Below, piece by piece: positions 3,891 through 42,144 of a stretch of DNA of 64,000 nt; position 1 is the stretch's first letter, and each line of letters starts with the position of its first letter. Position numbers and translations under genes: made by a program. The stretch covers positions 34,016,611-34,080,610 of the forward strand of contig NC_092576.1 of assembly GCF_037975245.1 (NCBI RefSeq), given 5' to 3'. The notes below the pieces were generated by a model. That model ran no database searches. It worked only from the letters and a program-made list of their open reading frames with translations, and was not told where the DNA came from. This stretch comes from Apostichopus japonicus (lineage: Eukaryota; Echinodermata; Holothuroidea; Aspidochirotida; Stichopodidae).

Positions 3891-3930
3891 AAATATAACA
3901 ATATAATAATATAATAATATATATATATAT

Positions 3931-8829
<4,899 letters not shown>

Positions 8830-16018: not shown

Positions 16019-17300
16019 TTACCTGCGAAGTTTTCCCAATACGGGTCTTTTCAGGCCCCAAGCAGTGTTCCCCCTTTTTCTTCGAGCAAGCAGAGTTCTT
16101 AGCTCCCCGTCAACTTTGATCGAGTGGACCTCCCTGTCACGAACAGGAGGTCCACTAGCGACCATCGTGTCCGGTATAGCGGAAGCGACTGCGGGCAGGA
16201 TGGAAGAGCCACTCGAGTCAATGAGATCAGTGGCCTGTTTCGTCTCATCAAACCAATCGGAGGACTCCTTAGCCACAACTACTAAGGCTGTAGTGCAGTC
16301 CTCCAATGGCGAGTCAGAATCTGGGCCACTTAATTCGAGGCCCGACTAATATCACCGATGGCGGACGTAGCTACCGGTGAACCAGTACAATCGGCATCAT
16401 GCTCCGCATGCAACTCCGCTAGTACAATCTCCGCCGTTTTGTCCAGCTCCGCCTCAGTGGGCAGGCTGACAGTCTCGGCAGACGAGGTGGGACACGAAAG
16501 GGGAAACAAATCCTCCACCGGGGCGCTAGTGTCGGACACTGGGGCGATCAACTGAGCATTAGCTGATACGGTGTCAGAGGCCGGAACGGGGACCACTTCA
16601 GCCACGCCCGTAGCCACTCTCGCGGCGTATGAGCGGTGTGGGCATAAACGGGCGAGATGGCCCGTTTTCCCACACGAGTTACACACGATATCCCCTTTAC
16701 ACTCGGCCAGGGTATGTCCAACCTGTAAACAGCGGATACACAGCTTGTTCGGGCACAACCTGCCCTCATGCCTTTCCAGCCCACACCTCCAACAAGTGCG
16801 AGGCTGGCCGGATATGCAATGAGGGCTCTGTGCCCATTAGCCACATATCGGATATAGGACTTCAGCTCGATTCTAACTCGTCTAATCCCGGTCTTGACAC
16901 CTTTCCTTTCCGGCTCCTCGTAGCCGGTCACTTTCCCAAAACGCCCCAGTGTCCGCACAACAACCTGTTCAGACATGTCCAGACGGAGATGGAGAACTGT
17001 CACCCAGACCGAACTGCCATACGGTGTGACCTTCAGTCCCTCAACTCCCTCCAACACATGGACGCCTCGGACACGGGCAGCCTCCGAGGTGAACCGAACA
17101 TCAAAAACATTCAACCTCTCAAGGGACCTTTAAACCAACAGAACGCAAAACTGAAAAAAACTCTTCCGGGGACGACCTTAGCCTTCCCCGAAAAGCTCAA
17201 CAATACGATTTTGCTGTCACGGCGAGCCACCATGATAGCTAGGGGTGTGGCAAGCCCTACGAAAAACAAAAACCACGAAACAAAGCCAAAACTACACTAG
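16019..17300 (-). pseudogene. LINE ORF1 (gag-like) with three CCHC zinc knuckles
   Basis: The N-terminal part starts at the ATG ending at 17114. After a one-base frame break near 16810 come three knuckles of C-x2-C-x4-H-x4-C form: CWRCGLERHEGRLC, CIRCLQVGHTLAEC and CNSCGKTGHLARLC. The tail (to 16019) is acidic and Ser/Ala-rich. Such ORF1 proteins bind the element RNA. The 223-codon plus-strand frame over the same DNA is antisense. The frame break means the protein is not made intact. Confidence 0.7.
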
Positions 17301-17516
17301 CAAACTACAAACTATTGAAAGGCCAACGTAAAAAACACAAAGTGTGTGGTCAACGAAAAATGGAGAGAAGCCGAAAACACGTCCGCACTCCACGAAAACC
17401 AACTACCACCCGGTATGTGCTATGTTACTAAACAGGTCAGGTAAAGTCAAACTTCTTTCCAGATGAATCATCCCCAACCCTCTTTTCTTTTTATGAAATG
17501 TTGGTACATTACCGCT

Positions 17517-18281
17517 CTAAACAAGCTCTTGATAACCAGACGTAATAAAAAAGAACATCACTCTCACCAGTCGCACCAGGACGCGACGCGGAATTGGGTA
17601 CACCGCGTCCGAGTACCACAAGATGGGCGAAACAAAACCATTAATGACACAGACTATCCCGACAATCGAAAACCAGCGAGTACCAAAGCTACCAAGGCGA
17701 AGGCTCTTTGTCTTGTTTGGATTTAACTTTTCCCCAGTAGCTCTCCCAAAAATCACGCTCAATACAAAATAACAAAATCTGCCAAGTCGCGCATCAACCA
17801 CAATATCTGCTGGATGCAATGACCCTTCACATCACAAGTCTGGAGATCACTTACAAGATGCGGTATGGCCAGTGCAAGGCGGTTTCACTAAACGTTATCC
17901 AGCAACTTGTAATGTACGTTCAACAAGGTCATATGGCGTTTGTTACGAGAATCCAAGAGGTCTCTAGACTTAGGCAGCAAAGTTATCATGCCCAGACGTT
18001 GACTTTGGTTTAACAGTCCGTTTTGGCACGCGTCTTCGAAGACGGCCCTGACATCGGGTTTGATTATGGCATAGAAAGTGAGGTAAAATTCCCTCGGGAG
18101 CCCGTCCGAAGCCGGAGAATTGCCAATTTTCATATTCGACAGGGCCTTTCAAAGCGCAACAGTGGATATACCACCCCCTAAAGTCGTATTGACATCGTGG
18201 GTAACAGTTTTTGTTTTTGGAGATACCCTTCAGTAGATGCCTTTGCCAACAAGTCGACAATGCCACGCGTAAAAAAAACAT
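17517..18281 (-). pseudogene. LINE reverse transcriptase remnant
   Basis: The frame at 18133-17888 has NSPASDGLPREFY, SQRLGMITLLPK and LLNVHYKLLDNV, the finger region of L1/Tx1-type RT (S-P-G-x-D-G-L-P-x-E-F-Y ... L-L-N-x-D-Y-K). The frame at 17819-17517 has HPADIVVD, an eroded Y-A-D-D region, then GEKLNPNKTKSLRLGS and LWYSDAVYPIPRRVL from the thumb. The palm between them is largely deleted and the catalytic Asp pair is not intact, so the enzyme is dead. Confidence 0.7.
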
Positions 18282-18671
18282 GAGTAAATACCTTCGAACA
18301 CGGAGACTATGCCGTGAGGGTCACTGACAGCATTCCCTTTAGCATCACGCACTGTTGGTGCATGTTTGTCAACCGTCAATGAGCTAACGGACTGGTAAAA
18401 CCTCAGTGAGGGGCGCTCCTCAACTTCCATCGCTTTAACACTGCCCCTAACGTGGGCACCATGGCACCTTCCATCAAGATACGTCTGCGAAGCGATAACA
18501 GCTAATGTGTAGTCAAGCTTCACCTCCGAGCAAGGAAGAATGTTTCTCCTCGCCGACCTGCGCGGGTCTTGCAATACTGACTTGTGTAGTGCTTGATGCG
18601 CAACTTGACATCATCCAACCATTGGTATGTAGAAGCAAAACCGGAACCTTGGCGGAACTCTACCTCCCCAA

Positions 18672-24881: not shown

Positions 24882-24941
24882 TTAACGGCTTGTGACATCA
24901 GCATATTCTTCATCTGTCATCTCTTTCTTGCTCCGTTGGTC
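24882..24941 (-). CDS. Ig-NACHT gene exon 16: terminal exon with a tyrosine motif
   Basis: After a TTTTACAG acceptor the exon reads, in phase, DQRSKKEMTDEEYADVTSR and then TAA at 24882-24884. The acidic context and Tyr-x-x-Val (EEYADV) resemble SH2-binding or immune tyrosine-type motifs, although position -2 is Glu and not the Ile/Val/Leu/Ser of a strict ITIM. It lies on the cytoplasmic side. The small size makes this call less certain than the NACHT exon, but frame and phase agree. Confidence 0.55.
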   Translation of the reverse strand, partial: DQRSKKEMTDEEYADVTSR

Positions 24942-27900
24942 CTGTAAAAGCAAAATCAGAAACAAGTTTTTCATTTTTTATTTTTTATTTTATCAGTTAA
25001 CTGAAGTATTGCAGATAAGAACATAGTATTCCACATGTTAAAATTAACTTGAATAACTCAAAGGTAGTGATTTGATGACTTTATCAAGTAAAACTATTCG
25101 CAAGTCTCCTAAAATATATAACAGTCTTGCGTTGATTTTAAGCCTTGTTAAATAATGTAACTTGTCAGACCAATCCTAACAGAGTTTCAAACGTCCAAAA
25201 TTGCAAAATTTTAACACTCGATGGTAGTAAGGAGAAGTGAAAGGGTGTTGAATAGGCTGAATCTTACGAATGTGGCCTAAATAATGTAAGAAAATATGTT
25301 AACAATATGGAACTAACGGTTTATTTCATCAAAAACCTAACAATTATATTTATTAGGAATAATGATTCTATGGATAAGCAACTTCCCATCATGATATTAG
25401 GGGCACAATTCAGGAGGGGTACAAATACATGACTCAAATTCTATTATAATATTAACAACTCAAATAATGTCTAGACGACATTTACAGTTTACAATGTGTC
25501 GTATATTTACAAAGAGATCTGTCACGGAAACACTAAAATATACTCATGTACTTACAAACCATCTCCCGGATTTGACGTTGAGATTATAGTATTGTTGCTT
25601 TGGATTCCAACTCACTACAATTAAGAAGATAAAACAAAAAAGGAAATCATTAATTATGGTTTTATATTTAACAAGTGCCTTCGTCAAAAATACGAATCAA
25701 ATGAAAAGTACAAAATGTGACACAAGAAAAGTAAATCTCTACGAGTAAGTGGCATAGATAGAAACCAAATAAATCAATGCCACTTATAAAGATATATTTA
25801 TATAGATATATTTCAGATAGACGGTCGTACCTTATATGATTATATGAATATGCTAAATGGTAACCTTCTTCAAGGATAATTCAAAAAGATATACAAACTA
25901 AGAAAATATGTTCGGTAACCGTAAACAACAGAGCTAATCCCAACAAATTCTTCAAGGTAAATGGGAACAAACCTACAACCTAAGAATAAATGTGCGGTAA
26001 CCATAAACAACATAGCCAATCACGTCGAATTGGCATAAACACCTTCTGTCTGGGTTTCTTACCTTTCTTATTTCCAGATTTCATCTTTGTTGGAATGGAC
26101 TCCGGAGAAATAGAACGAGGTACCAAGCATCGGTAAAACCTGCGTGATGAAAAGAAACAACTTGTAATGTAGCAAACAATTTCAAATCTTTCATAAACAT
26201 AACCATTTATTTCTGTATCATTTCCACACCGTCCAAAAACTGAAAATGAAGCTACGTTAATGTTGTGAAATCTTCACGACACTTATTCCTCGAGAAGTTG
26301 GTATTACTGTTTGTGAATGGTTTCCTGTTTCCTCTACAATCATGAATGATCCACAATTGGTGAGTTACAAAATGGGTACTGATTATTGCTGTTGAACTGT
26401 CCATAGTATCGATGTTTTAAGCTGTACTTGCTTTTTAGTTTAAATTAGTAAATCAAGTTCTAAATGGAAGACATCAATCATCGTTTACTTACACTAGTTC
26501 CTTAATTTGCTTTGATTGTTGTACAAACTTCATTATCTCAAGACATCTGGTTTCTGTTATCTCGTTTTTATCTTCTTGTATCCATAACCTTTCTACTGAT
26601 GAGGGGCAAGCAAGGCGAAGCTTTGAACGAAGGATTATGTAAACACCATCAGTTGTTCTAAAGGAATTGATAAGCCAAAGGTCGGAAATGGAAATCTGCC
26701 AGGTAATAAAGAGATGAATCATGGATGTACTGGTTAATGATTTTAATATTACATACTCTTATTTTAAACAACAGAAATAACCAATAACATCATTTTAGAT
26801 ACAGTATTGATTATTGCTAAGAATGAGCAAAATGGTTTCATTGCAAAATATTGTATTACATTAGGTTAATTTCTTTATGCCTTCTTTGCTCGACCAATCG
26901 GTCCGCACAGAACATATCATTTTGGTCGTTTAATTCATAATATAAATCCAACACAACCTGACGTCTGTTTACTAAATGTAGATTGTGGTCAAAAGGCAAC
27001 CCTTTATAAGAGTGCTGTTGGACAGTTAATTAGGAAAAAATGAAAACAAAGGCATTGTCATCCCAGTTGCCTTGATGCCTCATTTGTCCTTTTCTATCTC
27101 CAATATCCTCAAAATAAAATGCAAGTAAGTTTGCTAGACAACAAAGTTGCGGATAATTGTTTGCAAATATCATTTGTGAAACATTAACACACTTCAGAAA
27201 AATCGCATCACACTTACGTTACATTTCGAGGCATTAAGTAATAGTTCAATGGTACATTTCTGTAGCAGATAGCTGTGTTCGTTTCTGATTTCGATCATTT
27301 CGGAACATAGTCTTGACACGGTACTGGGATCATCAACCTTGTGATAAACAGAGGGAAAGAAACATGGTAGTGATATTTTTTGTTCATAGAAACAGCTTTG
27401 TATAAAACAAGAAACATCGTTTCGAAAGTTTATACGGCGTTAAAGATGATCATGCATTACATTAAAAGCAAAACAAAAAAACATATCCCTAACTCTATAT
27501 TTTGTTTAGGTAGTAATATAATAGTTATATAGTTATAATAATAACCACAGGAATAACGACTCTGTACTTTTGCCGAAATATTGGAACGAGCGATGCATAT
27601 TTAGAAAGCATTTCTTTATATATGTTATTGTCAAGGACAGATTCATACATGTCTAAAAAGATACATGTTACTATGCCAGGCTCAGCTAAACATGAAAAAA
27701 AATCATCGAATGCATTGTCGATAAATTTTTTAACTTTGTCGGATTCTTTACTTTGAAAACCCTAGTTTATGTTGTGAAATAAATATTTATATTTTAGACG
27801 CACCTTTTGTTGCATTTTCTCTTTTCATATTGTTGATTTTCTTAATGCTTTTCTATTTAACTGGTAGTTAACATCTATGTTTTTAACCTTAAAGTAACAC

Positions 27901-30900
27901 TTACTTTCACTAAGTTCTTACACTATCGTGAAGAAAATATCAAATAAACAAACTCACCTTCCAATCCCCAGAACGAAGATTCAGACGGTAGCCGTAGCGG
28001 CGCCACGTCACTAATAAAGGAGGAACACATATGATAACAGTCAACAGTTACTTTGGCAAATCGTCCTCCGTTCTCCCGACTCTCAAAAAATACATATCTC
28101 TAGTACCAAGATAATCACATGGTATCACTTAGGATTTATTATACCGTAATTTACGAGATACGCTGATTAACCTTTCATAATTAAACTATATATTGCATGT
28201 AAAGTAGATACATGGTGAGAAAGGGCAACTTGGAGTTCACCTTGGAAAGATCATCTTTTTCTGAAACCAGTTTATACACACTTTTACATTATTTTTTTCT
28301 TTTTTTTGGAAACTAAGTTTAATAAATGCATCGGTCACGGTAATTGCCAACATGCAGAAAGACAAGTTTGTTTTGGGACAGTAGCAACTTTAATTAGCTT
28401 CTGACCTAAAGGGCAATTGACGATGAAATTACCCAGTACATTGCTGCAATAATCTGTGTAATTTGTAAAATGCAAGATAATCTGTTTAGATCTGTAACTT
28501 AGACAAACTGCATTTACCGTGGTTTTATAAGGTCTATTTTACTATGTACTCTTTTATATGAAAGTTCCACTATTTACTACAGTTTGTTTTACTCCTGCCA
28601 ACTAATGTATTATGTATGAGAGTGCAAATAATGTAAAGTAAATATATCAGCTCGGAGTATTATTGAATTCTGACTGCTCATAATTTGTTTTACTGCCTTT
28701 TGCGTTTCGGGTATTACCACTGCTCTTACAGTTGTTACTATGTTTGTTCGTGTGTGCATTTAAAATGAATTGAGGATCACATATTACTCATACTTAATAA
28801 AATCTTCAAACCAAGATTTAATACACTTAGTTATCCGTGCATTATGAACTAATACGTAAAATTTACAGTTCTCGGAGATATATTTTGAAATCTGAAAATA
28901 TCAGCCATTTTAATCAATTTCCATTTGACAATGTTCGAACAGTTTGATAAAAGTGATGTTAAGTTCATTTAGCTTCTGGACTCTTTGACGTAAATATATC
29001 TTTGAGACATTCGTTCTCATTATTAAAAAAAATTACCTTTGACTTCCTTAGACTTCATATGTGCAGGTATAGTATCCACAGGAAATGGAATAGGTAGCAG
29101 GCATCCATCAAATCTTTGAAAAGCAAGTACAAAAAGAGAAAGGGACGTGGAACGAACAATATCAGTATTAGATTAACGTAACAACTTAAACATTTGTTGT
29201 GACAGATAAATGCAAATGATAATATTTACACAGAAATCTTCCAGTAATTACTGACACGAACATATCATGATGACATCGTTTTAATGTTGTATGTAACCAT
29301 ACGAATAGCAACATATATCATTGGTCCTGCTAATTATCGACTGTTTATTTAGTGTCCGCCTAGATTTACCAGATATTGGAGAAAATGTGATAATTGTAAC
29401 ACAATAACACAATATTATAAACACCTACAAGGTACGTTGGGGTTTAAGAAAGTACACCTTATTGCAGGTAAAATAAAAATTGTATTTCTTTTGAAAAACC
29501 TTTCTTAAAAACAACATTCATAGCTCAAAAGCGCGTATTCCACCCATTGTATCATAATAAAAAACATTCCTAGCTCTTAAGCGCGTCTTCCACTTTACCT
29601 TATTACTATTGAAAACTTTCAAGTATGTATGCATTTTAGATCCTCAACTCGCGGAGAAGCGTCATTGGCTTATCGAAACCGCAAGCCGACCGGAGCCAGT
29701 CTATTAGATTCATTTTAACGTCCATGATTATGAGTTGTCAGTTGTCAACAACTCTGTAACTGGCCGACATACATTAATCTTGGAGTGATTCAAGCGCGTT
29801 TAACATTAATACTCACGACAGCTCTTTTAACTGTTGAGAATCCATCCCAATGTTGAATATCTGTCTAAGTTCGTCTTTTCCTAATGTCCTCGGTTCTCTA
29901 CCATTCTGCGCTATTTCGATGAGTATCTTTTCAACAGTCAACAGCTTTGGTAACATGAGACCCGATTTGAGTACGAAGCTGGCTTTATCGAACTGGTCAC
30001 AAGATTTATGAAGGTGTACGCACGATATGGGTACCTGTTATAAAGATGGTGCTGTATTAAAAATAATGTTGTCTGGTGTACATGCTACTACTGAAACAAG
30101 TTAATTCATTGCATCCTCCTAAAAAATGTCATAATTCTTGAAAAAAAAAAAATTCATTTACGTGGTTAGCAAACGTTGGGCAGGTTAAAAAAATATGTTG
30201 TTCTTGTTAGAAAGCTGAAGACAAATAAGAATGCTCCCTATATTTTGAAAGGTATTTGTAGTGATAAAATGGTAGACAAATCTGAATGTACAAAGTAGGG
30301 TATGCAAAGTAATCCAATATTTAAGGGACTGTCAATTTATTAGTACTTCGAGGTATAGTTTGATATAGGTTTCCAGGTTTATCCATATAGTATTTAGGTA
30401 CTACATTTCTTATAACCAATATCATTTTTCTTTTTCACGAAATACCCTATTCCATTTAATATTATTGCTAAATAACAAAGAACGAACCAAAGAGAAACAA
30501 ATACATGGAATTTGAATTATTTTCGTGAGATATTCATATTTTGACGCAGAATCATAGGCTAGTAAGCTTGACTGTAATTTCACTACCAGTATAGCTCATC
30601 ATACTGTTTTGTTCATAATATAGTTGGTTGGGTACGACCTACCTGTAAACTGTTCTCATTTATTTGTGAAAACATTTCATTGCTGAATAGTGTCAATTAT
30701 TATAAAGTTATATTAGTTGAAGAAATTGTATATGTTCTAAGTATTTCATGTCAGCCTATATTCACCTGTATCTTCGTTGCGAACTCCAATATTTGTAAAG
30801 TTGACCTCTGTAGTAGGTTGCTGTCGTCAGCGCTTATCTTAACTGGTTTTGAGACCATCTGTTTGATGACGTCAGCAATGCCGTCGGTCTGTTCAACTTG

Positions 30901-33900
30901 TTCCAAAAAGCACAATGCGGCAAACCTCTGATCTTTAACTTGTTTCTGCAAATATCTAATAATTTTGTCTGAAGCGGATTTGTTGAGTCCGCAGGCAAAA
31001 CGATATACATATTGGAGGTCAAAAGGATCCATGTTACTGAGCAATTTGTTCATATCTTCATACTCTTTGTCAGAATTGGAAATGTTGTTTGTGTCAGAAA
31101 GAACAGTTGCTATGTAGTGAGCGGCGTACCATTCACAGAAAAGCTTATGATAAAACCTTACTTTCTTTGTATATTGCATATGAACTACAGACTGAAAAAC
31201 ATTTTCTAGAACTTCCTCTTCTACTAAAATGCCGATGTGGTTATACAGGTCATAAAAGTCTTCGCCAAGTCGTTTTTGGAGAATTTCACTACCCCACTGA
31301 ATGTCTTGCTTACCACCACTTAAAGCTTCAAAAGCAACTTTATTTAACTCGCTGTGTCTTTTTTCTAACTCTTCGTTCTTCCGTTGGATGTTCACATCTT
31401 TTATTTTATTCCTAGAATGACTATGGAAGCATGATATCATATAACGAAAGAAACTTGTGACCGACTTAAATGTTTGAAGTTCTTCGCTCTCATGAGTCAT
31501 GTGCGCGAACATAACAAAGAAGAGCGGAACTTGGCACAAGTCACCGAGAACAGGGTTTTGTTGGAGCTTGCGTTTTATCACCTCTGCAGATTCTCTGTCG
31601 TTACCTGCTACTGCTTTATAAATATATTGGTCGCGTGCGCTGTCATTGAACCCTGTTAATCGCAGCCGATGCGCTTGAGGTGCAATGTTCTTTGGCAAAC
31701 AGAAAGATCTAGTTGTAAGAAAAACGACTGCATCTTGAAACATATTTTTACCAAGAATTTGTGCAATATCTGTATCAACACTTTCTTGGTCAGGGTATTC
31801 ATCGTAACCATCCAGTAATACAAATAATGACGAACATCTTGATATAATGGATTCAATATCATCGACATTAAACTTTGAGTCCTTTGGTAGTATGAATCGC
31901 TTTATCGCCTCATATACTGAAGGTACACCTTTCAACTGTCTCAATCGCAGGAAAATCAATATATCTGTCTTTGTCAAGGCAGAAGTACTCCTGGTATTGC
32001 ACCAGTCATATACAAGTTGGAGTGCAAATGTTGACTTTCCATAGCCAGGTTCACCTTCAATAATATACATGCTAGATTTCTTTACTTCTTTTAAGATCTC
32101 ATCGTGTGACTCAACTGGTTTCCAATTTAAGTTCAAAGTTTTCATGTCCATACCACCTTCAACATATATTCGATTGACACAAAACAGTCTATCTTTGATA
32201 TAAGGAATTGGTTGCACAGCGTCGTATAGAACTTCATAGCTAGTTTTAATCTCCTTGATGAATCTCCCCGTGTCTTCTGCATAATTAATGAACAATTAAA
32301 CATTATATAGGATTTCAGCGAAAATTACTATGGAAATTTACATAACAAAATTGTCAAGCACAGTTTAAATCAATACAAGAAATAAGTTAAACGTTCAAAG
32401 ATACTATGTTATGGCCATGTTTGTAATAAATGGAAATATTTTCTCTATAATTGGTAATTATGTATACGAAAAGCTTTGTTACATATGTTTGTCCGAATAA
32501 GTGAAAGAACACCAACACATTCAGTAACAGTAACCCTGTGGAGAAAAATCGTATAGGCAAAAAATACAAGATTTCGACAAGGGATGAAACAGGGCAAATA
32601 CGGAATGGGGGGTTTGGAAAAGTAAGTTATTTTAACACAAAGTGGACACTTATGGATTGTTTAGGATTACCTTACTACGATAGCTGACTAACTAAGGTAA
32701 CAGCATAGGTCTTCCAAGTAAGCAAAGAAAATTAAAGAAAAATTAAATTAGATAAAGGCTCACCATTTTGAAAATTAATCATCGGGGCCGTCTGAAAAAA
32801 AAAATGAATAAAGGAAAATAACAATAAAATTGTAGTTGACAAGCTTTGCTTTTGGAAGGTTTTAAATAAGCAATAAAAATGCTTGGACTTCTGAGTGGAT
32901 TTTCAGTTTCTTTCTTTCATTTTTAGTACAAGGTGCCTGGCAGTATGTGTTTTGATTCTTAATTGCGAAGAACTTTAATAGTCTCGACATAAATCAAATT
33001 CTCACCTCCTCTGCATTATGTCCGTCTTGCTTTCTTGGCTTCCTCCTTAATACTAATGGAGATATACAAAGGAAAGAAGATGTGACAGTAAGTGACATAT
33101 AATAACCCACTACATCAAGTCAGACATTTAGAGGGAATGATTAATTTTTTTAATGGTTAATTTATACCTATATAAACAGATACTATTCTTGCATCATACC
33201 TTTAAACAGGACCAACAGAACTGCCATGGTGATGATAATCACAAGTGCAAGAACTGTTAAAATCAAGACAGCAATCGGTAGCTTCCTTTTTGAATCGCTG
33301 GTTTCTTCTGTTAAAGATAGAAATCGGCACAAATTAAAGTGTGAGGCAAGTTAGTTAATCATATTAATTAAATTTGGCTTATGAATAACAGTATGATGTC
33401 CTTTTTGAATCGCTGGTTTCTTCTGTTAAAGATAGAAATCGGCACAAATTAAAGTGTGAGGCAAGTTATTTAATCATATTAATTAACTTTGGATTATGAA
33501 TAACAGTATAAAGTTTTCCAATCTTGTATCAAAGTTTGCTTTTATGACAGTGCAGCAGCTAACCATAGCTGATAGAAAATTCACCCACACGCATGCACAT
33601 AACTTAAACAATGGCAAACTTGGGTACTACACTGTATCTACTTGTCCCATTGAGGCAAACTTTACTTAGTTCCCACAATCTACCACAAACTTGAACATTA
33701 TCTGTTCATCATTAGCTACATTACAAAGACACATCGTGATCGTTTGTGATACTGGTCTACCTTCCTAATATATGTTGCCTACAGTATTGGTAAGAGCACC
33801 AACAATCGAAGGACATGAGATATTCGAATTGCTATTCAGTATTCCTAATTTGTAACTGATATCGTATTATTTCAAATATATCGACATTTTCTCTACACTC

Positions 33901-36900
33901 TAGACTTTATTTACTTTAAATCCATAGCAGTATAATACCAAACAGACGTTAATTGGGTAAACAATATACTTACGTTCTTTGATAATGTTTTTTTCTTATC
34001 ATAAAAGAAAGCTGTGAACACTAAAACTTAGCTGTGTATACTAACCAAACTTAGGTATAAGTTTCACTTTTGTAGACATATGAAAGAGATCTGCGTTCGA
34101 CCCCACGACCAAACACTCCAAAGTAATTTCGTCTGCAAAGGTTGCTTCAAATTTAAAGTTTCCTGAAAGAAAAACATCAAAGCTGCCTTCTCTTTCATTT
34201 GATTTTACTTCCTGACCACTCAAAGAAAAGTCATTAGTGTCGTATTGACTTTTCCACATAAGCTCGACCTCTGGTCGAATACCGAGCACAGAACACGTGA
34301 TGTTTCCTTCTTGTTTAACCTCAAGAACGCAGCTTTGTGGAGGGGTGCATCCTTCGATAATTATGTGAGGTGGATTTGGACTTTCTGCACGAGAAAAAAA
34401 GTGAGATAAAATTTTTCATTACGAAATTACCTTCTTTGCTGTCAACAGAATATAGTGCTTTATAAAAGAAAATAACAAGTTAGATGGTTAAAAACACACC
34501 ATTTTTTTTAAATTGTCAATATACATGAAAATCTTGTAGTTTAGTCATTTCTAATGATATTGTGAGAAACAAGCAAGCTCCCAATATCCAGGAATTGTAA
34601 AAGCACATCAAGGGACTTCTTCTTTAACTTCTTTTGAGGCCTAGCTTGTATGTAAGCGAGCAAGATGTGTAAAACAAAACCAAATGTATGTTTATTACAT
34701 GAATGGTTTAATTTTAACCAAGTCACATATCTCACAGCTCTTTATTGCAGCTACGACAGTTACATTATGTCCGTTTTGTTTTATAAGGACAATATTAATG
34801 TGTAATGTTTTGTTTTCTTGTTTTTTGATGAACCAATTTTCAGTTTATCTAATTATACTATGGTCTGTCAATGTGTACTAAATATGCCATTACAATAACT
34901 CGCTTACAGTGTAGGAAACATAGTATACTCACTGAAAATAAGAACATTGTAGATCCGGATGTGTTCTGCATTCGAGTCACTTGAAAGACAAATGTACAGA
35001 CCCGCATGATGCCACTTCGGCCGATGTAAAATTAATGAACCGTTCGAACCAAGTCTGTAGTCCTGATTGTATGTTTGGTTCACACTGTTTTTCCAGTTGT
35101 TAATACTTATGAGAATGACCTCCGTCTGTCCGTCTACATCTAGAGATCGTTTCCAGATGACAACGTTACCCTCATTGCATGAAAGGGTCATTTCAGAGTT
35201 AACCTCAAAATATTGCTTAACCGGATTATCTTTGGGATCAACATCTTGTCCTTCTAGAATAGCCACGGCTTCATCTTCATTAAACAGCCACTTATTGTCC
35301 TCTACTTTGCACACAAAGACGGAGAGTAATGGTAATTCTCTCGCTAATTGTAAAGAAGCTAGTGACGTAAATGTGTTTCCTTGTGATGCTGTTACATTCG
35401 ACCATGCAGTTAAGAGCTGGTCATGATTACTAATCCGTTGATACCACGCCAAAGAAACAGTGGGTCGAACGTTTTCAACAAAGCAGTTAATTGAAGACAA
35501 TTGATTATTAACAAACAAGCAAACATCCGGTTGATCTTCACAGCGTTCAATTACTGGGAACGAGAGAACAGGCGTAACTGTGAATAAAAATGATAGAAAA
35601 ACATATAAAACATAAAATAAACGTAAAATATGACAAAGATAATAAATACTATTGTTTTCTGTAATTGTTTTAACATTAGGAGAACTGTTTTTCCTCAGTA
35701 TTGTGAGGGTTAGATCTGATTCTTTGTGATAAGGTCACTTCCAACTCATAACGGTGTACAGTTAGATCAGCTTGTTTCCAATTGAGGGCACTGTGTCATA
35801 ATGGAACCATTTATGTATGTATTTTAGACCCTCCTACAAAGTGGAACTCGCAAAGAAGCCTCATTGGCTTATCAAAGCCGCAAGCTCACCGCAGTCCGTC
35901 TCTTAGATTCATATTTAACGTCCATGATTATGAGTTGTCAACAACTTTGTTACTGGACGACATATATTAATCGTGGAGTGACTCCAACCGGGGACCTTAT
36001 GATTGAAAGTTTCTGATCAAATGTGTCCAAAAGTGGAGGGAATAAAATAAAACTTCCGTGATTCAATACACGTTGTCACTTGCCCAAAAAAGTACTTACA
36101 TTTAATGTTATGGTAGAAGCATTAGTACTGTTTATTTGCAGCATATGTGTTGACGTTTGAGGCCATGAAAGGAACACAACCGATGATAATTCACTAACTG
36201 AACATGTATTGCTGCATGCCCAAATGTACGGTCATAGGATTCAAATAGATGGTCATATTACATCACAAACTGTTCATTAACCATTAGTCAAAGGCTTATG
36301 ATTTCATCAATAATGACAATGAGTACTTATTAATAATGCAATAATGGCTTTAGACAAGGAGATGATATGATACTTCACAGTTCATAAAATCAATGAATGA
36401 TCTACTAAAAGATGCAGAAAACATAAATGTTTATTTGTGTTAGGTAGATAATATTTTGTAAGTACACTGTAAAAAATGTCTGTGATATAACAGCTTTACG
36501 CCGTTCATCTACAAAAATTAATCATGTTGTTAAAAAAAATTGTTGTCCATTTACAAAATGTATTGTAACAACATTTTCTGTATATGGGAACAAAATTTTC
36601 ATAACAATACATCAACTGCTGTGTCGGAACAAAAGCATCAGGCTCGATCCAAGTTTTCATTATGCGGTCGAAGTGACCGCGAAAACGTTACACCAAATCT
36701 TGCATCATAAAACGAGAACCGTATTTTACATGTTGTTGGAATGATAGAAAGTAGCATATACGTTTAGTCTTACGCAATCAACGAGTTTTTTCCGAAATAG
36801 TAAAGTTAACAACTGTGTCGCAAAGTTGTAGACGACCTTTGTACACTACTTACAGTTGAATGACGCTGGGCGCGCACCGAAGGTCCGAAACCACTGTAAT

Positions 36901-39900
36901 TACGGTAAGTTATGATTTCAAAGCTTTTTAGTCCTTTTTAATCTAACATGAGTGCAACTATAGTGAATTGAGTCATATGAATCTGTTACAATTTACGTAA
37001 GCATTTATTAAACGTTCGTTTGTTGGTTTGTTTGTTTTGAAATAAGCGGCAAAGCAAGTAGGCTAGGCCGACAGCACAGCTCTCTGTCGGTCCATTGTGT
37101 GCATACTAGCACAGGATGCTATGGCAGTTCTTTGTTAGGCGAGCATATACGATCGCTTACTTCTAGCATATCGTCGTAGCTGTTTTGACAGTCATACCAA
37201 ACCTAAGCTTACATTCATTCTTTCGCGGTATCGTTTCTATTGGTTATGATATAACGCAGCCTAGACACTGGTCACCAATCAGTATCTATGCTTTACTATA
37301 TAACATAGATTCTCTTAGGAAACTTCTTGATATCACTTTTACTGTTTAGTTTGAAGCCCCCGATCGGCTTACACTAAATCTTGAGGGAGTCGTGCAGTCC
37401 CGTCCTGAATCTTGGGGGAGTCGTACAGTCCCCTATGGCACGCCAAATGTTAAAATTCAGAAATGAACAATCTAGGCTAGGTTTATGGTTAACAAACTCT
37501 GGTCTATCACTAAAATAGATCATCGATCAATAAAATTGTTTTTTTTTGTCTGATAAATCACGTTTTTCCAGTGATAAATCAGAATTTTACTAATACAACT
37601 TGTTTTGTTTTTCTCGCTGAATTTTGAAAACTAATTATTGGTGGGTAAAACCATTTGTTATTCCTTGTTCAATTCTGAAGGATGCTACTGCATGCAATGG
37701 GGAAACCCTGTATGTAATATGTGCCTGTCATTTGATGCCTTGGCGTATAAACACGATATCACAAGAACCAAAGATGTTTGAACTCGAAATTTAGTATTTC
37801 TAGGTATGTTTGAGTGGGAGAGGGCTTAGGTGGAAGTTAACTATACAAAAAATTCCTGAAGGAAATTTCTTTGTAAAGGGGAATTGTGATTATTGCGAGC
37901 TAGAAAAAAAAATTACAGGCAAAGTCTACCTCCTAGCCCTCCTCCCCCCACCCCCCCCCCCCACCCATCCAGAACTGTGCCTGAGCTGCTAATTGCCCCT
38001 AGCCTACTTTAAGTATCATGAACAGTTGATGTATGCACTGTTGTATGCTATACTAACCCGATCTTAGCATGAATGTGTTGATTGTGGGTGTTATGAATTA
38101 TGCCAAACTGTAACCTACTTACAGTATTAACTGATATGATTTGTCATCTGTCAATATATATGTAACCAAAAGTGTTTGTTTGTTTTCCTTTCATAGGATG
38201 GCTTCAGCTAAACCTGAGATGGAATAGTCAGGGGCACCGGATTTGTAATATATTGTTGGAGAGCCTGACCCATTTCCGAAAGGTTTTAATTTCCATGTTT
38301 TTACTCTCTTGCAGATGGTTACTTGTTCATGTGGTGTTCACTCTGATACTGCAGCTAGAAAGATGTGTCACTACAGGCTTCATCAAAATCAACCAAATTT
38401 TCAATTTACGTGCATGTCCTGAAGAAAAGTGCAACAGAATTTTTGTAAGTTATTCAGCTTTGAAAAGTCACTTCTATCGTGACCATAGAGAAGATGGTAT
38501 TGAAACACTCATTTTATCTCTATCCTAAGACTATGATTGGTCTGACATATCTATGCACTAGATCATCAGGTTTTGACTTTTTTTGTAGTAAAGTGCATCA
38601 CGGTGACCACTGGATTCATCCAGAGTGCAAGAGTTTCACTTGCAGGCTACTCTTGCATAATTTCTGAATGAAATTGCTTTTAAAATTATAATCCATGGAT
38701 CTTTATACTTTAAGATATTAATAAAAATGCTTTTGTTTTTATGTAACAGGTTGCAATCCATTTCTTAGAAACAGAATGGCAATAACAGTTGATCGGGAAC
38801 CTCTGCTGTATCCTACATCCATTATTGCTGTGTTGAAGATGTTGTTCATGAGCTACTATGTGTTCAACATATGCTATCCCACAGAGGTTCAAGCAACCAT
38901 GGAATACATACAGAGGTACAGTTTAAACCTAGTTTCTTGACAGATTAACAAAGGAGGTGCATTCAAACTACAGTTCCTCCATCTTGTTGAGATCATGCAA
39001 GAAGAACTGCAAAGAAGAACTGTCAATTCCAACAAATGTTGTGCAACATTAAATGTTTTCATTAAACTACTAGTGCACCTGTCACGGCATGCAAATAACA
39101 ACAGTTTATATATAATAAAATGGATACAAACTTTTACTTATATATATATATATATATATTTATATATAACTTTTATGTGAAGTTTAACTAATTTTGGGGA
39201 TACTATTACCAAAATTGAATAAATTTAGTTTTTAAGCACTAGGATGTTTTTGGTAAACAAGGATAGATTGGACTCATGAAACTTTTTTCAAATTATTCCC
39301 TACAGAATACTGTTCGAGATTGATCCAGGGAGAGGGTCTAGGACAAAGAAATCTTACAGATGGTGTATAAATCCGAAAGTAACTTCTCTTTGTGAGCGGA
39401 TGAAGGAAAGTAGAGAGTGAGATATGCAGTGAATGTGGCCACAAGTATTAAGCTACTTGAGCTAACTTCATTTAATTTTGTTTTGTTTAATGCCGTATAC
39501 TTTTTGTTAAATGATACCTCCATTTCAAAAGCGCTGAATCTGTGAACTATTCTGCTATAAATCACTAAATTTTACAGATTCATGTTACAATGTAACTTAA
39601 AGTTGATTTTTAAAATATTTAATAAACAATAAGGTAATCTGCTTGCTTCAGAAGTCTTTTAACCAAACATTGTATTTTCTTAAATACAAAATATGATTCT
39701 GTACAGAACAACCTCGTAGCTTTTTCAGTACAAGTTGGATGTAATTATATAAAAATATCCCAAATTTGAGCACTGTCAAGTAGATTTTCTGATTGTTCTA
39801 TATATTGGAAAGGGTTCGTTTTACCAAAAAAATATCCCAGTGTGCCTGAGCATTTCAATGGAAGTTTCATCACTTTGACATTGACCAACAATCTAACTGT

Positions 39901-42144
39901 TTTCTTTTTTCTTTCTATTGATTTGGGAGTTGTTCTGATAGCAGTAAAGCTTATTTCCAAGGGTAGCAACTGTACTCATTCGAAACAAAGTATTTTTACT
40001 AGAAGAAATCCTTTTAAGTACTCTAAGCATATAAATAGTATTTGAGTTTCACACTGTTAATAGCTTTTTGTTTCAGGTTCAGTTTCAATGCAACTTAAGT
40101 GGTTTCCAGGTTTATGTTATTGTTTTGTTTCTTATTTCTTTAGTATGTCATAGAATAGTATTTTTTAGTCGTTGCTCTTTCATTCTAGACACTATCTCTT
40201 TGTAAGAGTGCTAATTACAATGGACAGCAGTATCCTTGGTAGGTTCATAAGGTAAATTGACCCCCTGCTATTCAGCATTTATCAATCTTGCTTAAATAGT
40301 ATTTTACCTTTGGGAGTCTAATATCATCAGGAAAGTCCAGATTAATATGCTGAAATAGTTTAGTAGTAGTATGATAATATCACTGTTTTTCAACGCACTG
40401 GTAGACAAATTCACACTTTATCCCTGTTTTGGAATGATATCTAAACTGTTCATGTTAGTGTAATATATTGTTACATTGTTGTTTGCAGTGCTAATTCCAC
40501 ATTTGCTGTTTATGATATTCTAAAAGTTTAAAACACCTGTCAAGATTGCATGTTGGTAAATAAAGATATGTGTGTTTGGTAAATTTGACTCTCTCAATGT
40601 GTTCCTCTTGGTATAACGTTTATTTTTTCATCTAAATCTCTTTCATGTACAACAAATTCCTCTCCACAAAGGATTTGCCCAGGATCACAAATTACTTTAC
40701 CAACATATAGCAGCTTCATTTGAATACATAATTTTTACTTTCAACCACAACTTTTTACTGTGTATACAAACTGTTATTTGGTAAATTAACGGAAACATTC
40801 TGTCTAGAAACGAAAAAAGTTCGACCAATATACAAAAAGTATTTTGAATTTTACATCACTTTTTCCATGTTGCCACATAAAATTCTACCTGAATAAATAG
40901 AAATGAATCTGTTTCTACACAAACCGTAGTTGTGCATTTACAGTTGCTGTTGTACACTGATGAAAAAACAGATGGAAACTAATTGACAGCTTTTCTTTTG
41001 TAAATATACAGAGAAATTTTTTACAGTGTAATGTTAAGCTTTGTCAGTAACGGTATATAGACTATGATGGTAACATGACTTTAGATTTACCAACTTCTCA
41101 GTATTGTGGTATTTTCCTTTCTTTTTAGTGTCTACAGTGAAAGGAATGTTTGAGTTAAGGGAGAGAGGTGGGGCATTTGTCATGTCTCGCCCCTACCATG
41201 CACCACCCCTTCTTCACTCATTCAATTGAAGAAGTTCATATATCAACCGGGTAAAATACATTACAGCTATGGTTATACAGTCCAATGCCAAGCTTGCGCT
41301 GGAAATGGCTCATTAGCCAATTCGCATTATAAGTGGAACTTGTTAAATTATCAAAAATGCGTTAGTCACTTTTTTTGGTAATTCCAGTTGTTACAAACCA
41401 TGCATAATGCACTAACATGTAACGTAGAGTGGTTAGGGATAATATTACCTTTAGATTTCACTTGTATATACCAATCCTTTATCGGTTCATCTTCCGAGGC
41501 GGCAACCGAAACACTGAAGATCCTTTCATGGTGTAAAGTGACATTGTTAATGATCAGAGAACCATTAGGATAAACGTCGTATTCCCGAGAGAGATACCCG
41601 CTGCCGCCCTTCACAGACTTCACGAAAGTGATAATAGGTGGCGTCCCTATCGTAGTAGAATCGTACCATTGAATGCCTAGATAGCCCTCTTCAAATGCAC
41701 ATTGAACCGTTCCAGACTGAAACAGTTCCAGGTATTGTAATGTAGCGCACATTGTGTTTGAACCAGGTAAGCCTGTGTGAAAAAGTCAGCATTTGAGTAC
41801 GCTTGTATATAACTTCCTATAAGAATAGTGGCAAAAGAGAGAAAATATTTAACATTTGCTTGCTTGGAGGTTTCTTTATCTTTAGTACTGAAAATATAAC
41901 AAGGAGTCACAGTAAATGAGTTTTAAAACTGAATATGTTTATTATAATACATCTCATATATAGTCTCCATGGGAAACTATTTCAAACTGAGTATGGTGCA
42001 ACCTACTAATGCTTGGTAACATTTAGACATCCTTAATTTTCGTGTGCGTTTATGTACTCCATTTACAAATATATTCAATATGCCTACTTACTTACCACTA
42101 ACAATTGCCACCAAAATAAATAGGACAAGTCGTTCTTTGGCCAT
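24882..42144 (-). CDS. Membrane Ig-NACHT receptor (four Ig-like domains, TM helix, NACHT ATPase)
   Basis: Sixteen exons (high to low): 42144-42096, 41772-41449, 35577-34933, 34384-34046, 33307-33200, 33052-33006, 32791-32764, 32276-30766, 30034-29817, 29113-29037, 28010-27958, 27337-27218, 26695-26493, 26139-26063, 25614-25556, 24941-24882. All junctions have AG/GT ends and compatible phases; the sum is 3918 nt (1305 residues plus stop). Order: signal peptide 1-17, Ig1 about 20-124, Ig2-Ig3 125-339, Ig4 340-452, TM 463-487, NACHT 514-1017, then a duplicated C-terminal module and a tail ending EEYADVTSR. NACHT proteins are STAND NTPases that switch on ATP binding and usually oligomerise; Ig ectodomains bind ligands. 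I infer a surface receptor that signals through its NACHT. No death-fold effector domain is visible. The largest intron holds an EnSpm-like element. No gene symbol is justified. Confidence 0.85.
25556..26695 (-). CDS. Ig-NACHT gene exons 13-15: second copy of the C-terminal module
   Basis: Exon 13 (26695-26493) corresponds to exon 9 and ends KQIKELV. Exon 14 (26139-26063) is 77 bp like exon 10 and reads FYRCLVPRSISPESIP. Exon 15 (25614-25556) reads VSWNPKQQYYNLNVKSGRWF, matching exon 11. Exon order, the 77-bp length and phases (0, 2, 1, 0) are the same as in the first copy. Divergence is high, so the duplication is old. No counterpart of exon 12 was found before the terminal exon. Confidence 0.62.
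27218..30034 (-). CDS. Ig-NACHT gene exons 9-12: first copy of a C-terminal exon module
   Basis: Exon 9 (30034-29817) runs VPISCVHLH to QQLKELS. Exon 10 (29113-29037, 77 bp) has SFDGCLLPIPFPVDTIP. Exon 11 (28010-27958) has VTWRRYGYRLNLRSGDWK. Exon 12 (27337-27218, exactly 40 codons) has VDDPSTVSRLCSEMIEIRN and a Leu-rich helix ending NASKCN. Phases run 0, 2, 1, 0, 0. The L-K-E-L-x-x-x-x-C-L-x-P pattern at the exon 9/10 junction looks like one degenerate leucine-rich-repeat strand, as in NLR C-termini. The fold is otherwise unrecognised. Exons 9-11 are repeated as exons 13-15. Confidence 0.65.
29623..29795 (+). repeat. Dispersed repeat, copy 1 (SINE-like)
   Basis: Matches 35812-35986 in the same orientation, sharing CATTGGCTTATC, AACGTCCATGATTATGAG and GACATA-ATTAATC-TGGAGTGA. 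Both copies lie in introns of the Ig-NACHT gene. Length (~175 bp) and lack of coding capacity suggest a SINE or MITE; I saw no clear A/B boxes. Confidence 0.65.
30766..32276 (-). CDS. Ig-NACHT gene exon 8: NACHT ATPase domain
   Basis: A single 1511-bp exon holds the NTPase. Walker A is EGEPGYGKSTFALQ (Lys about residue 594). Walker B is LFVLLDGYDEY, the NACHT-specific form with D-G-x-D-E (about 669). Sensor 1 is VVFLTTRS (about 700). A GFND...A segment and winged-helix-like sequence follow, ending LEFATKIQ at the donor. The pre-NACHT block VNRIYVEGGMD is the usual lead-in of invertebrate NLR-like NACHT proteins. All nucleotide-binding residues are intact, so the ATPase is likely functional. 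Neighbouring exons extend it at both ends; alone it would look like a truncated NLR. Confidence 0.92.
32764..33052 (-). CDS. Ig-NACHT gene exons 6 and 7: cytoplasmic juxtamembrane linker
   Basis: Exon 6 (33052-33006, 47 bp) reads VLRRKPRKQDGHNAEE; exon 7 (32791-32764, 28 bp) reads TAPMINFQN. Phases run 1 to 0 to 1 and join the NACHT exon in frame. The basic cluster is a stop-transfer signal. An alternative acceptor 6 bp inside exon 6 is possible but gives a less basic reading. Only about 26 residues separate the membrane from the NACHT exon, and no CARD, Death or PYD domain fits there. Confidence 0.65.
33200..33307 (-). CDS. Ig-NACHT gene exon 5: transmembrane helix
   Basis: 108 bp, phase 1-1. 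After a polar stretch (EETSDSKRK) comes about 25 hydrophobic residues starting LPIAVLILTVLALV, ending at the exon boundary with Phe-Lys. The next exon is strongly basic (LRRKPRKQ), as expected on the cytoplasmic side. This sets the topology: Ig domains outside, NACHT inside. The first 24 bp of this exon with its acceptor are duplicated upstream at 33399-33422. Confidence 0.85.
33284..33513 (+). repeat. 115-bp tandem duplication including the start of the TM exon
   Basis: TCCTTTTTGAATCGCTGG occurs at 33284 and again at 33399, and similarity continues for the whole 115-bp unit with only a few differences. On the minus strand each copy carries the same splice acceptor and the first eight codons (EETSDSKR) of the TM exon. 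Only the lower copy continues into the membrane helix. Confidence 0.85.
34046..34384 (-). CDS. Ig-NACHT gene exon 4: fourth, membrane-proximal Ig-like domain
   Basis: 339 bp, phase 1-1. Key residues: GNITCSVLGI (B Cys with a sequon), ELMWKSQ (Trp) and DEITLECLVVG (F Cys). It starts with S-P-N-P-P-H, a typical proline-rich inter-Ig linker. The following exon is the membrane helix. Confidence 0.85.
34933..35577 (-). CDS. Ig-NACHT gene exon 3: second and third Ig-like domains
   Basis: 645 bp, phase 1-1, encoding two Ig domains without an intron between them. Ig2 has SSINCFVENV (B Cys), SLAWYQ (C Trp) and LLSVFVCKVED (F Cys). Ig3 has EMTLSCNEGN, VVIWKRS and AGLYICLSSD, a textbook Y-x-C F strand. 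Sequons NVT, NQT and NGS support an extracellular, glycosylated location. Both lie on the N-terminal side of the membrane helix. Confidence 0.85.
35812..35986 (+). repeat. Dispersed repeat, copy 2 (SINE-like)
   Basis: Partner of 29623-29795, same orientation, lying in the intron between Ig-NACHT exons 2 and 3. It starts TATGTATGTATTTTAGA and ends near the GTGGAGTGA block. Confidence 0.65.
36465..41028 (+). mobile_element. EnSpm/CACTA-like DNA transposon inside an Ig-NACHT intron
   Basis: The left end is CACTGTAAAAAATGTCTGTG and the right end, read inward, is CACTGTAAAAAATTTCTCTG: 18 of 20 positions match and the termini are CACTG. A TA dinucleotide flanks both ends (36463-36464 and 41029-41030), compatible with the 2-3-bp duplications of EnSpm/CACTA. 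The 4564-bp body contains a plus-strand spliced zinc-finger-like gene (about 38315-39420) but no recognisable transposase. Subterminal sequences have ACAAAATGTATTGTAACAA-type words on the left. Tc1/Mariner (also TA) is less likely given the CACTG ends. Confidence 0.6.
38315..39420 (+). CDS. Zinc-finger-like gene carried by the EnSpm-like element (partly decayed)
   Basis: After an acceptor with a good pyrimidine tract (CTCTCTTGCAG) the first piece reads VTCSCGVHSDTAARKMCHYR. After a one-base frame break it continues ACPEEKCNRIFVSYSALKSH and FYRDH, giving C2H2-type Cys/His pairs. A middle exon at 38750-38915 has LLYPTSIIAVLKMLFMSYYV and FNICYP, and joins in phase to 39306-39420 (ILFEIDPGRGSRTKKSYRWC, stop at 39420). 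The C-x-C ... H-Y-R ... S-Y-Y-V-F-N-x-x-Y-P layout is one I associate with transposon-linked zinc-finger proteins of animals; I could not check it. A noncoding first exon near 36840-36905 (donor GTAAGT) is possible. Confidence 0.42.
41449..41772 (-). CDS. Ig-NACHT gene exon 2: first Ig-like domain
   Basis: 324 bp, phase 1 at both ends, as is usual for extracellular Ig exons. B-strand Cys lies in GTVQCAFEEG and the core Trp in GIQWYDS. NGSLIINNVTLHH forms the D-E region with two N-glycosylation sequons. Where the F-strand Cys is expected the sequence is RIFSVSVAAS, with no Cys, so the canonical disulfide is lost; an extra Cys near the N-terminus (MCAT) might compensate. The D-E block is clearly similar to NGSLILHRPKWHH in the third Ig domain, suggesting domain duplication. 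Confidence 0.8.
42096..42144 (-). CDS. Ig-NACHT gene exon 1: start codon and signal peptide
   Basis: The ATG ends at 42144. The exon reads MAKERLVLFILVAIVS with a final split codon (phase 1) before a GTAAGT donor, followed in the next exon by G-L-P-G. A short basic start and a nine-residue hydrophobic core are typical of a eukaryotic signal peptide. A possible 5'-UTR acceptor (CTTAAACAG) lies about 20 bp upstream. Confidence 0.75.

Follow-up and report, generated by a model that had tools for sequence, protein, structure and literature searches.

Does a single sea cucumber gene join recognition outside the cell to the ATPase core of an NLR? The question is raised by a locus of Apostichopus japonicus, lying in a stretch of 64,000 nucleotides (the window; NCBI RefSeq assembly GCF_037975245.1, contig NC_092576.1, positions 34,016,611 to 34,080,610 of the forward strand), where an earlier note had read one 16-exon gene for a receptor with surface immunoglobulin (Ig) domains, a transmembrane (TM) helix and a NACHT domain. 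The gene stood up to reconstruction: a splice-constrained model on the minus strand, 42144..24882 in window coordinates, gives a single gene with 16 exons, 15 GT–AG introns and a product of 1305 amino acids (aa). The raw sequence confirms that recognition outside the cell and an NLR core are united in one sea cucumber receptor, and we hold it probable, at about 0.82, that the gene is intact and belongs to a large family of holothurian NLRs, membrane proteins of type I that work by a clustering-driven mechanism. The Ig–TM–NACHT design itself is not new: papers of 2021, 2025 and 2026 describe it in A. japonicus (PMC8699970, PMC11932488, PMC13133943); what is added here are C-terminal modules that are probably leucine-rich repeat (LRR)-like, an argument on topology, and the exchange of tails behind a shared ectodomain. 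The gene is laid out as follows.

42096..42144, minus strand: exon 1, ATG and putative signal peptide (hydrophobic residues 6–24, donor score 6.9)
41449..41772, minus strand: exon 2, Ig domain 1, V-set-like (exon edges and homologue model; alone below the Pfam cutoff)
34933..35577, minus strand: exon 3, Ig domains 2 and 3 (exon edges; V-set and C2-set_2 stretches above cutoff on the whole of the homologue P0001)
34046..34384, minus strand: exon 4, Ig domain 4 (weak Pfam Ig matches below cutoff, homologue model, exon edges)
33284..33509, no strand: 115-bp direct tandem duplication that doubles the TM exon's acceptor and first codons (TRF, 2.0 copies, 97%)
33200..33307, minus strand: exon 5, TM helix (core residues 466–484) and first inside basic residues (gene model, hydropathy, flank charge)
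33006..33052, minus strand: exon 6, basic juxtamembrane segment (gene model; acceptor weak, score 1.4)
32764..32791, minus strand: exon 7, 28-nt mini-exon with most of the ExxPM juxtamembrane motif (gene model)
30766..32276, minus strand: exon 8, NACHT, the helical region after it and the start of C-terminal module 1 (PF05729; NLR fold of homologue)
32032..32055, minus strand: Walker A, GEPGYGKS (coordinates computed from the gene model)
31798..31818, minus strand: Walker B, LLDGYDE (coordinates computed from the gene model)
27958..30816, minus strand: C-terminal module 1, residues 1001–1133, from the end of exon 8 through exons 9–11
30034–29817, 29113–29037 and 28010–27958, minus strand: exons 9–11 (gene model)
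25559..27268, minus strand: C-terminal module 2, residues 1157–1285, within exons 12–15
27337–27218, 26695–26493, 26139–26063 and 25614–25556, minus strand: exons 12–15 (gene model)
24882..24941, minus strand: exon 16, C-terminus and stop codon (tblastn, gene model)

The reconstructed reading frame keeps consistent phases over the 16 exons and has no internal stop. P0001 guided the choice among splice sites, so that agreement with it in exon choice is not independent evidence; the open frame, the GT–AG borders and the phases are. The coding blocks were recovered by tblastn with P0001 as query, and the product is identical to BSL78_16108 of A. japonicus at 1273 of 1282 aligned residues with no gaps. 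The gene is real, and the note had read it well. Exon 1 is absent from P0001, whose residue 1 is residue 24 of our model. Two automatic gene predictions were rejected: one with a low intron penalty, which brought in spurious mini-exons, and one with a high penalty, which lost true C-terminal exons and kept a spurious exon of 27 nt.

Relatives were sought with the cytosolic part of a draft model (scored region 480–1130) that carried wrong residues between Ig3 and Ig4 and missed several C-terminal exons. The search gave 320 proteins, 120 of which were listed; all family counts below come from these 120, and the named ones among them are from A. japonicus or Holothuria leucospilota. Many are annotated "NLR family CARD domain-containing protein 4". 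A TM segment 60–180 residues ahead of the P-loop is strong in 61 and missing in 39, and the remaining 20 lack the P-loop pattern, the last two groups including partial annotations. A full-length ectodomain (TM at residue 430 or later) is present in 42, which share the Ig–TM–NACHT order, and 37 carry both Ig and NACHT in a precomputed Pfam column. Within the window itself, tblastn with the 120 proteins (E 1e-3) found no further member of the family. In pairwise comparisons among 41 full-ectodomain relatives, median identity is 57% for NACHT and 54% for the region after it, 28–39% for the Ig domains, 35% for module 1 and 22% for the juxtamembrane part, a pattern expected of variable recognition on a conserved motor, as far as identities can tell in place of a selection test. 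One A. japonicus relative, P0003, apparently holds two NACHT-type units in tandem (by eye) and has no TM segment by hydropathy.

Part of this family comes from a set labelled lgn, which we take to be assemblies of public reads. Over this search and an ectodomain search described below it contributes 13 distinct proteins, and eight of them (P0004, P0046, P0076, P0104, P0105, P0108, P0112 and P0127) join a region of ectodomain length, a TM segment and NACHT. For six of these, the open reading frame (ORF) takes up 70–97% of the contig, while the corresponding span in the window gene exceeds 11 kb (42144–30766). Judged from these lengths, since the contig DNA was not seen, the six are best read as spliced transcripts of relatives; the contigs of P0004 (53%) and P0046 (59%) would leave room for short introns.

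Hydropathy, Pfam, motifs and a homologue model agree that a single polypeptide carries NACHT behind a putative signal peptide, four Ig domains and one TM helix, as the note had it. The N-terminal stretch of residues 6–24 is judged a signal peptide by hydropathy alone, and the TM core at residues 466–484 has a mean hydropathy of 3.25; together with the Ig domains these are the features of an immunoglobulin superfamily receptor. On the whole of P0001, Pfam finds V-set at 30.5 bits (cutoff 26) and C2-set_2 at 24.2 bits (cutoff 21); three Ig ORFs of the window scanned one by one with Pfam all stayed under the cutoffs. The count of four leans on an AlphaFold2 model of P0034, a homologue with the same layout as the window protein, which has β-sandwich stretches at about 30–455, followed by a helix (469–501) and then by the NACHT region (mean pLDDT 77.3, pTM 0.49; the arrangement of domains was not used). 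Both modelled structures are of homologues, P0011 and P0034, and not of the window protein. Among the 50 Foldseek matches listed for P0034, the best are NLRC4 (E 1.2e-18) and the multi-Ig ectodomains of neurofascin, SYG-2 and Robo1. Ig2–4 of the window protein have cysteine pairs (assigned by eye), and Ig1 (41772–41449) is without the second canonical cysteine; its Cys 25 and Cys 41, which seem by eye to match two nearly invariant columns of one family alignment (A2, below), may pair instead. Downstream of the helix, the ExxPM juxtamembrane motif occurs, by a loose pattern, in 38 of the 61 TM-bearing members. A similar string, EEIVPM, is present in three proteins that lack NACHT (P0121–P0123). 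A second TM helix was considered and rejected: the weak hydropathy peaks about 170 residues after the P-loop in several homologues correspond to the stretch LCQVPLFFVM (model residue 760), which is a helix inside the NACHT region in both homologue models.

The NACHT domain is recognized strongly on the window protein (PF05729, E 1.7e-17, 64.2 bits against a cutoff of 26.7), and the intact Walker A and Walker B motifs that the note described were located in the 1305-aa model, as GEPGYGKS at residue 588 and LLDGYDE at 667, with LTTRS at 700. With both Walker motifs, a helical region downstream and an NLR-like fold in the homologue, the protein belongs with the STAND/NACHT NTPases. The P-loop G..GK, the Walker B DxxDE and the TR positions are invariant in the alignments A1 and A2, built from 80 and 39 of the listed proteins. 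Since 13 of the 20 proteins without the P-loop pattern lay outside A1, some relatives may have lost these nucleotide motifs. Behind the core, the C-terminus holds two modules of about 130 aa. Across 19 such modules (counts take in partial copies of more than 40 positions) no Pfam match was better than E 0.02, and no PDB match appeared up to E 10. In a homologue model the C-terminal modules fall, when aligned, on the LRR portion of several NLRP3 structures among the 50 matches listed, and for this reason they are probably LRR-like. The idea of an NLR that senses without LRRs may thus be true of the sequence only. No death-fold or TIR effector appears among the 17 Pfam families that P0001 brought up at E 10 or better, a search whose filters drop most weak matches, and this is in line with the note, which had seen neither. 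Vertebrate NLRC4, NLRP3 and NOD2 are cytosolic proteins with classical LRRs and a death-fold N-terminus, without Ig or TM. If the C-terminal modules are LRR-like, the sea cucumber proteins would be surface-tethered NLRs for which sensing is possible on both sides of the membrane.

The closest published counterpart is AjNLRC4 of A. japonicus (MN607598), a protein with Ig and NACHT domains located at the membrane, whose ectodomain binds microbes and whose dimerization is assigned to the Ig domains; it is internalized and drives actin- and Arp2/3-dependent phagocytosis (PMC8699970). After internalization its Ig domains bind caspase-1, and the resulting complex brings about cleavage of MLKL and lytic death of the cell (PMC11932488). 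AjNLRC4 and AjNLR-new are both Ig–TM–NACHT proteins with reported roles in phagocytosis of Vibrio (2021, 2025, 2026). The window protein has the AjNLRC4 layout, N-terminal Ig, then TM, then NACHT in a single ORF, and the positions are alike: AjNLRC4 has Ig domains outside, a TM helix at 483–503 and NACHT at 600–757, next to the TM core at 466–484 and Walker A at 588 here. It differs in that the paper gives a second TM helix (776–795) and no LRR, whereas in the window protein the corresponding stretch belongs to the helical region behind NACHT and the C-terminus consists of the probably LRR-like modules. We read the published second helix as a buried one, its position fitting the LCQVPLFFVM region of the homologues. 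Of a caspase tetrapeptide like that of AjNLRC4, the window ectodomain has two loose LxxD strings only, to which we give no weight.

That the window gene might be AjNLRC4 itself was rejected: each of seven published oligonucleotides has five or more mismatches wherever it is placed in the window, and six or more against the coding sequence. Because none of the seven fits, the window gene is, on these oligonucleotides, a paralogue of AjNLRC4. Peptide strings translated by eye from the AjNLRC4 primers are also absent from the 120 listed proteins. The published AjNLRC4 thereby turns out to have many relatives, as gauged by similarity. BSL78_16108 and BSL78_16873 are not named in the literature found, where only MN607598 or PIK48001 is. 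AjNLR-new (PIK48001.1), an A. japonicus protein of 1197 aa, likewise combines Ig, TM and NACHT but is reported with the topology reversed (PMC13133943). NLRs with an Ig V-set, a domain stated to be unidentified in sea urchin NLRs, are described from another holothurian, Chiridota heheva (PMC8913654), and are comparable with the window gene by description as holothurian NACHT proteins. In another phylum, sponge NLRs with TM domains are putative membrane-bound NLRs, and the passages of that paper (PMC12909245) mention no Ig ectodomain joined to NACHT.

The mechanism that we favor would run as follows. The four-Ig ectodomain would face outside, and one TM helix would hold the cytosolic NLR core together with the probably LRR-like modules; microbes or partner Ig receptors would cluster the ectodomains, clustering would bring the NACHT cores together, and the assembled complex would lead to uptake and further signalling. 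By analogy, the paralogue AjNLRC4 shows in print the ectodomain half of this scheme, namely microbe binding, Ig dimerization and membrane location. We infer ATP-dependent switching of the window NACHT because its nucleotide motifs are conserved and its fold is NLR-like, and likewise a part for the C-terminal modules in autoinhibition or inner sensing, as well as a ligand for the gene. Direct switching from Ig to the STAND core, as the note proposed, is plausible on these motifs. The output, which the note had left open, is partly answered for the paralogue AjNLRC4 (phagocytosis, caspase-1 binding).

Much turns on which side of the membrane NACHT lies. For AjNLR-new it is reported to lie outside, with Ig inside, from a TMHMM prediction and membrane location in 293T cells; a recombinant NACHT fragment of that protein binds the surface, whereas that of AjNLRC4 does not, and an antibody blocks binding (PMC13133943). 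The same orientation in the window protein would leave NACHT exposed and the Ig domains in the cytosol, but the family argues otherwise. Averaged over the 61 TM-bearing members, the 15 residues that flank the helix carry a net charge of +4.98 towards NACHT versus +0.08 towards Ig, the charge being higher on the NACHT side in 57. N-glycosylation sequons, counted in the 42 members with a full ectodomain, are 3.8-fold enriched there (1.60 per 100 aa in the ectodomain versus 0.42 on the NACHT side). The window protein alone has a weaker contrast in sequons (1.29 versus 0.61). A hydrophobic 11-mer lies within the first 40 residues of 34 of the 42. A TM predictor can read an N-terminal hydrophobic stretch as a first TM helix, and the reversed topology of AjNLR-new, which we compared by description and not by sequence, may stem from a signal peptide read in this way. 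Because charge and sequon bias, taken together, run family-wide, the evidence favors Ig outside, NACHT inside and one TM helix; the same placing in the earlier note is upheld by these statistics and by the published membrane location of the paralogue AjNLRC4 (PMC8699970), and the inverted arrangement seems to us very improbable for the window gene. The statistics also bear on the published claim of an extracellular NACHT in one Ig/TM/NACHT protein.

A gene model could also have fused two adjoining genes, one for Ig–TM and one for NACHT; the NACHT-less Ig–TM proteins P0121–P0123 and the 39 relatives without a TM segment before the P-loop would fit this. We regard such a fusion as extremely unlikely, given the Ig–TM–NACHT order in 42 listed homologues, the six lgn proteins whose joined ORF takes up 70–97% of the contig, and the experiments with antibody, knock-down and overexpression reported for the paralogue AjNLRC4 (PMC8699970). 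Decay would leave a mosaic copy without a working receptor, as the 115-bp duplication at the TM exon and the nine residue differences from P0001 might hint. All nine fall in exons 13–16 (26695–24882), eight of them as in the paralogue P0002, a pattern that points to gene conversion or to a chimera in an assembly record. With the frame open over 16 exons and motifs and splice sites intact, a dead copy is improbable. The strongest competitor makes the protein an endocytic scaffold, in which Ig domains bind microbes and NACHT is an actin-docking surface only, its ATP binding and oligomerization unused. The intracellular part of AjNLRC4 does bind beta-actin (Kd 5.87 uM), its uptake is actin dependent, dimerization is assigned to Ig, and the passages of the paper describe no nucleotide or Walker-mutant test (PMC8699970). 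Set against this are the invariant P-loop, Walker B and TR positions of A1 and A2 and the NLR-like fold, and we think a pure scaffold possible but rather unlikely. Several further points weigh against a clustering-driven type I receptor. Three basic residues (KRK) stand just outside the window TM helix, AjNLR-new is reported the other way round, and Ig–caspase binding is placed in the cytoplasm (PMC11932488). Because the nine differences are confined to exons 13–16, P0001 or the window record may be chimeric, and because the window gene is not AjNLRC4, its function may differ. Its architecture, finally, is a prediction from genomic sequence.

The ectodomain of the preferred type I receptor may also occur in other settings. 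The duplication at the TM exon creates a second acceptor at 33422, preceded by 20 identical bases, whose use would truncate the protein behind residue 466, ahead of the TM helix; it could permit a soluble four-Ig splice form. One ectodomain search gave 11 proteins; another, restricted to a class of shorter proteins and scoring just the 7998 candidates with the most shared words, gave four. Both miss most of the 42 known full-ectodomain relatives, which makes them insensitive and the list of tails a minimum. P0121–P0123, three A. japonicus isoforms, have a window-type ectodomain, one TM helix and a tail that looks coiled-coil by eye; P0123 gave no NACHT match, and the precomputed Pfam column shows none for the three. 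In a maximum-likelihood ectodomain tree (48 rows, unrooted; P0001, P0122 and P0123 left out), P0121 is the sister of the window gene (100/95) within a clade (98/98) whose five other rows are Ig–NACHT receptors. In two lgn proteins, P0125 and P0126, the ectodomain is accompanied by one more Ig, by three hydrophobic segments and by a Death domain that Pfam recognizes at E 1.6e-13 and 5e-14. P0125 is collinear with the window ectodomain (119–557 to 9–444, 32% identity, BLASTP E 2e-72), a level equal to that of four Ig–NACHT relatives (31–33%), and in the tree, where the two Death-tailed rows were trimmed to residues 119–584, both sit among Ig–NACHT ectodomains (nearest fork 94/93).

Since homologous ectodomains sit on NACHT, coiled-coil-looking and Death tails, this comparison supports an exchange of tails clearly in one case, the NACHT-less P0121, and probably in another, the Death-tailed P0125 and P0126. 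The passages of the NACHT-related literature found (PMC8699970, PMC8195603) mention no Ig–Death receptor of sea cucumbers, in a search that papers without the word NACHT would escape, and related outer parts on other kinds of tail look new. From the collinear P0125 and P0126, the sister position of P0121 and the duplicated acceptor, one may tentatively picture a single Ig ectodomain family as an exchangeable front end, in which Ig–NACHT proteins would pair with Ig–Death proteins and borrow a death-fold output, and the soluble form would act as decoy or opsonin; we offer this as speculation with the odds against it. If the ectodomain is shared by NACHT, Death and coiled-coil tails, it would point to a modular receptor system in echinoderm immunity.

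Elsewhere in the window, where no tRNA or Rfam features were reported, a 1.35-kb ATAG/GATA microsatellite with 99% matches lies at 3919–5269. An ORF at 16333–16836 on the minus strand contains CX2CX4HX4C zinc-knuckle strings, and more long ORFs adjoin it in a GC-richer stretch, 16333–18610, which by eye looks like the remains of a retroelement.
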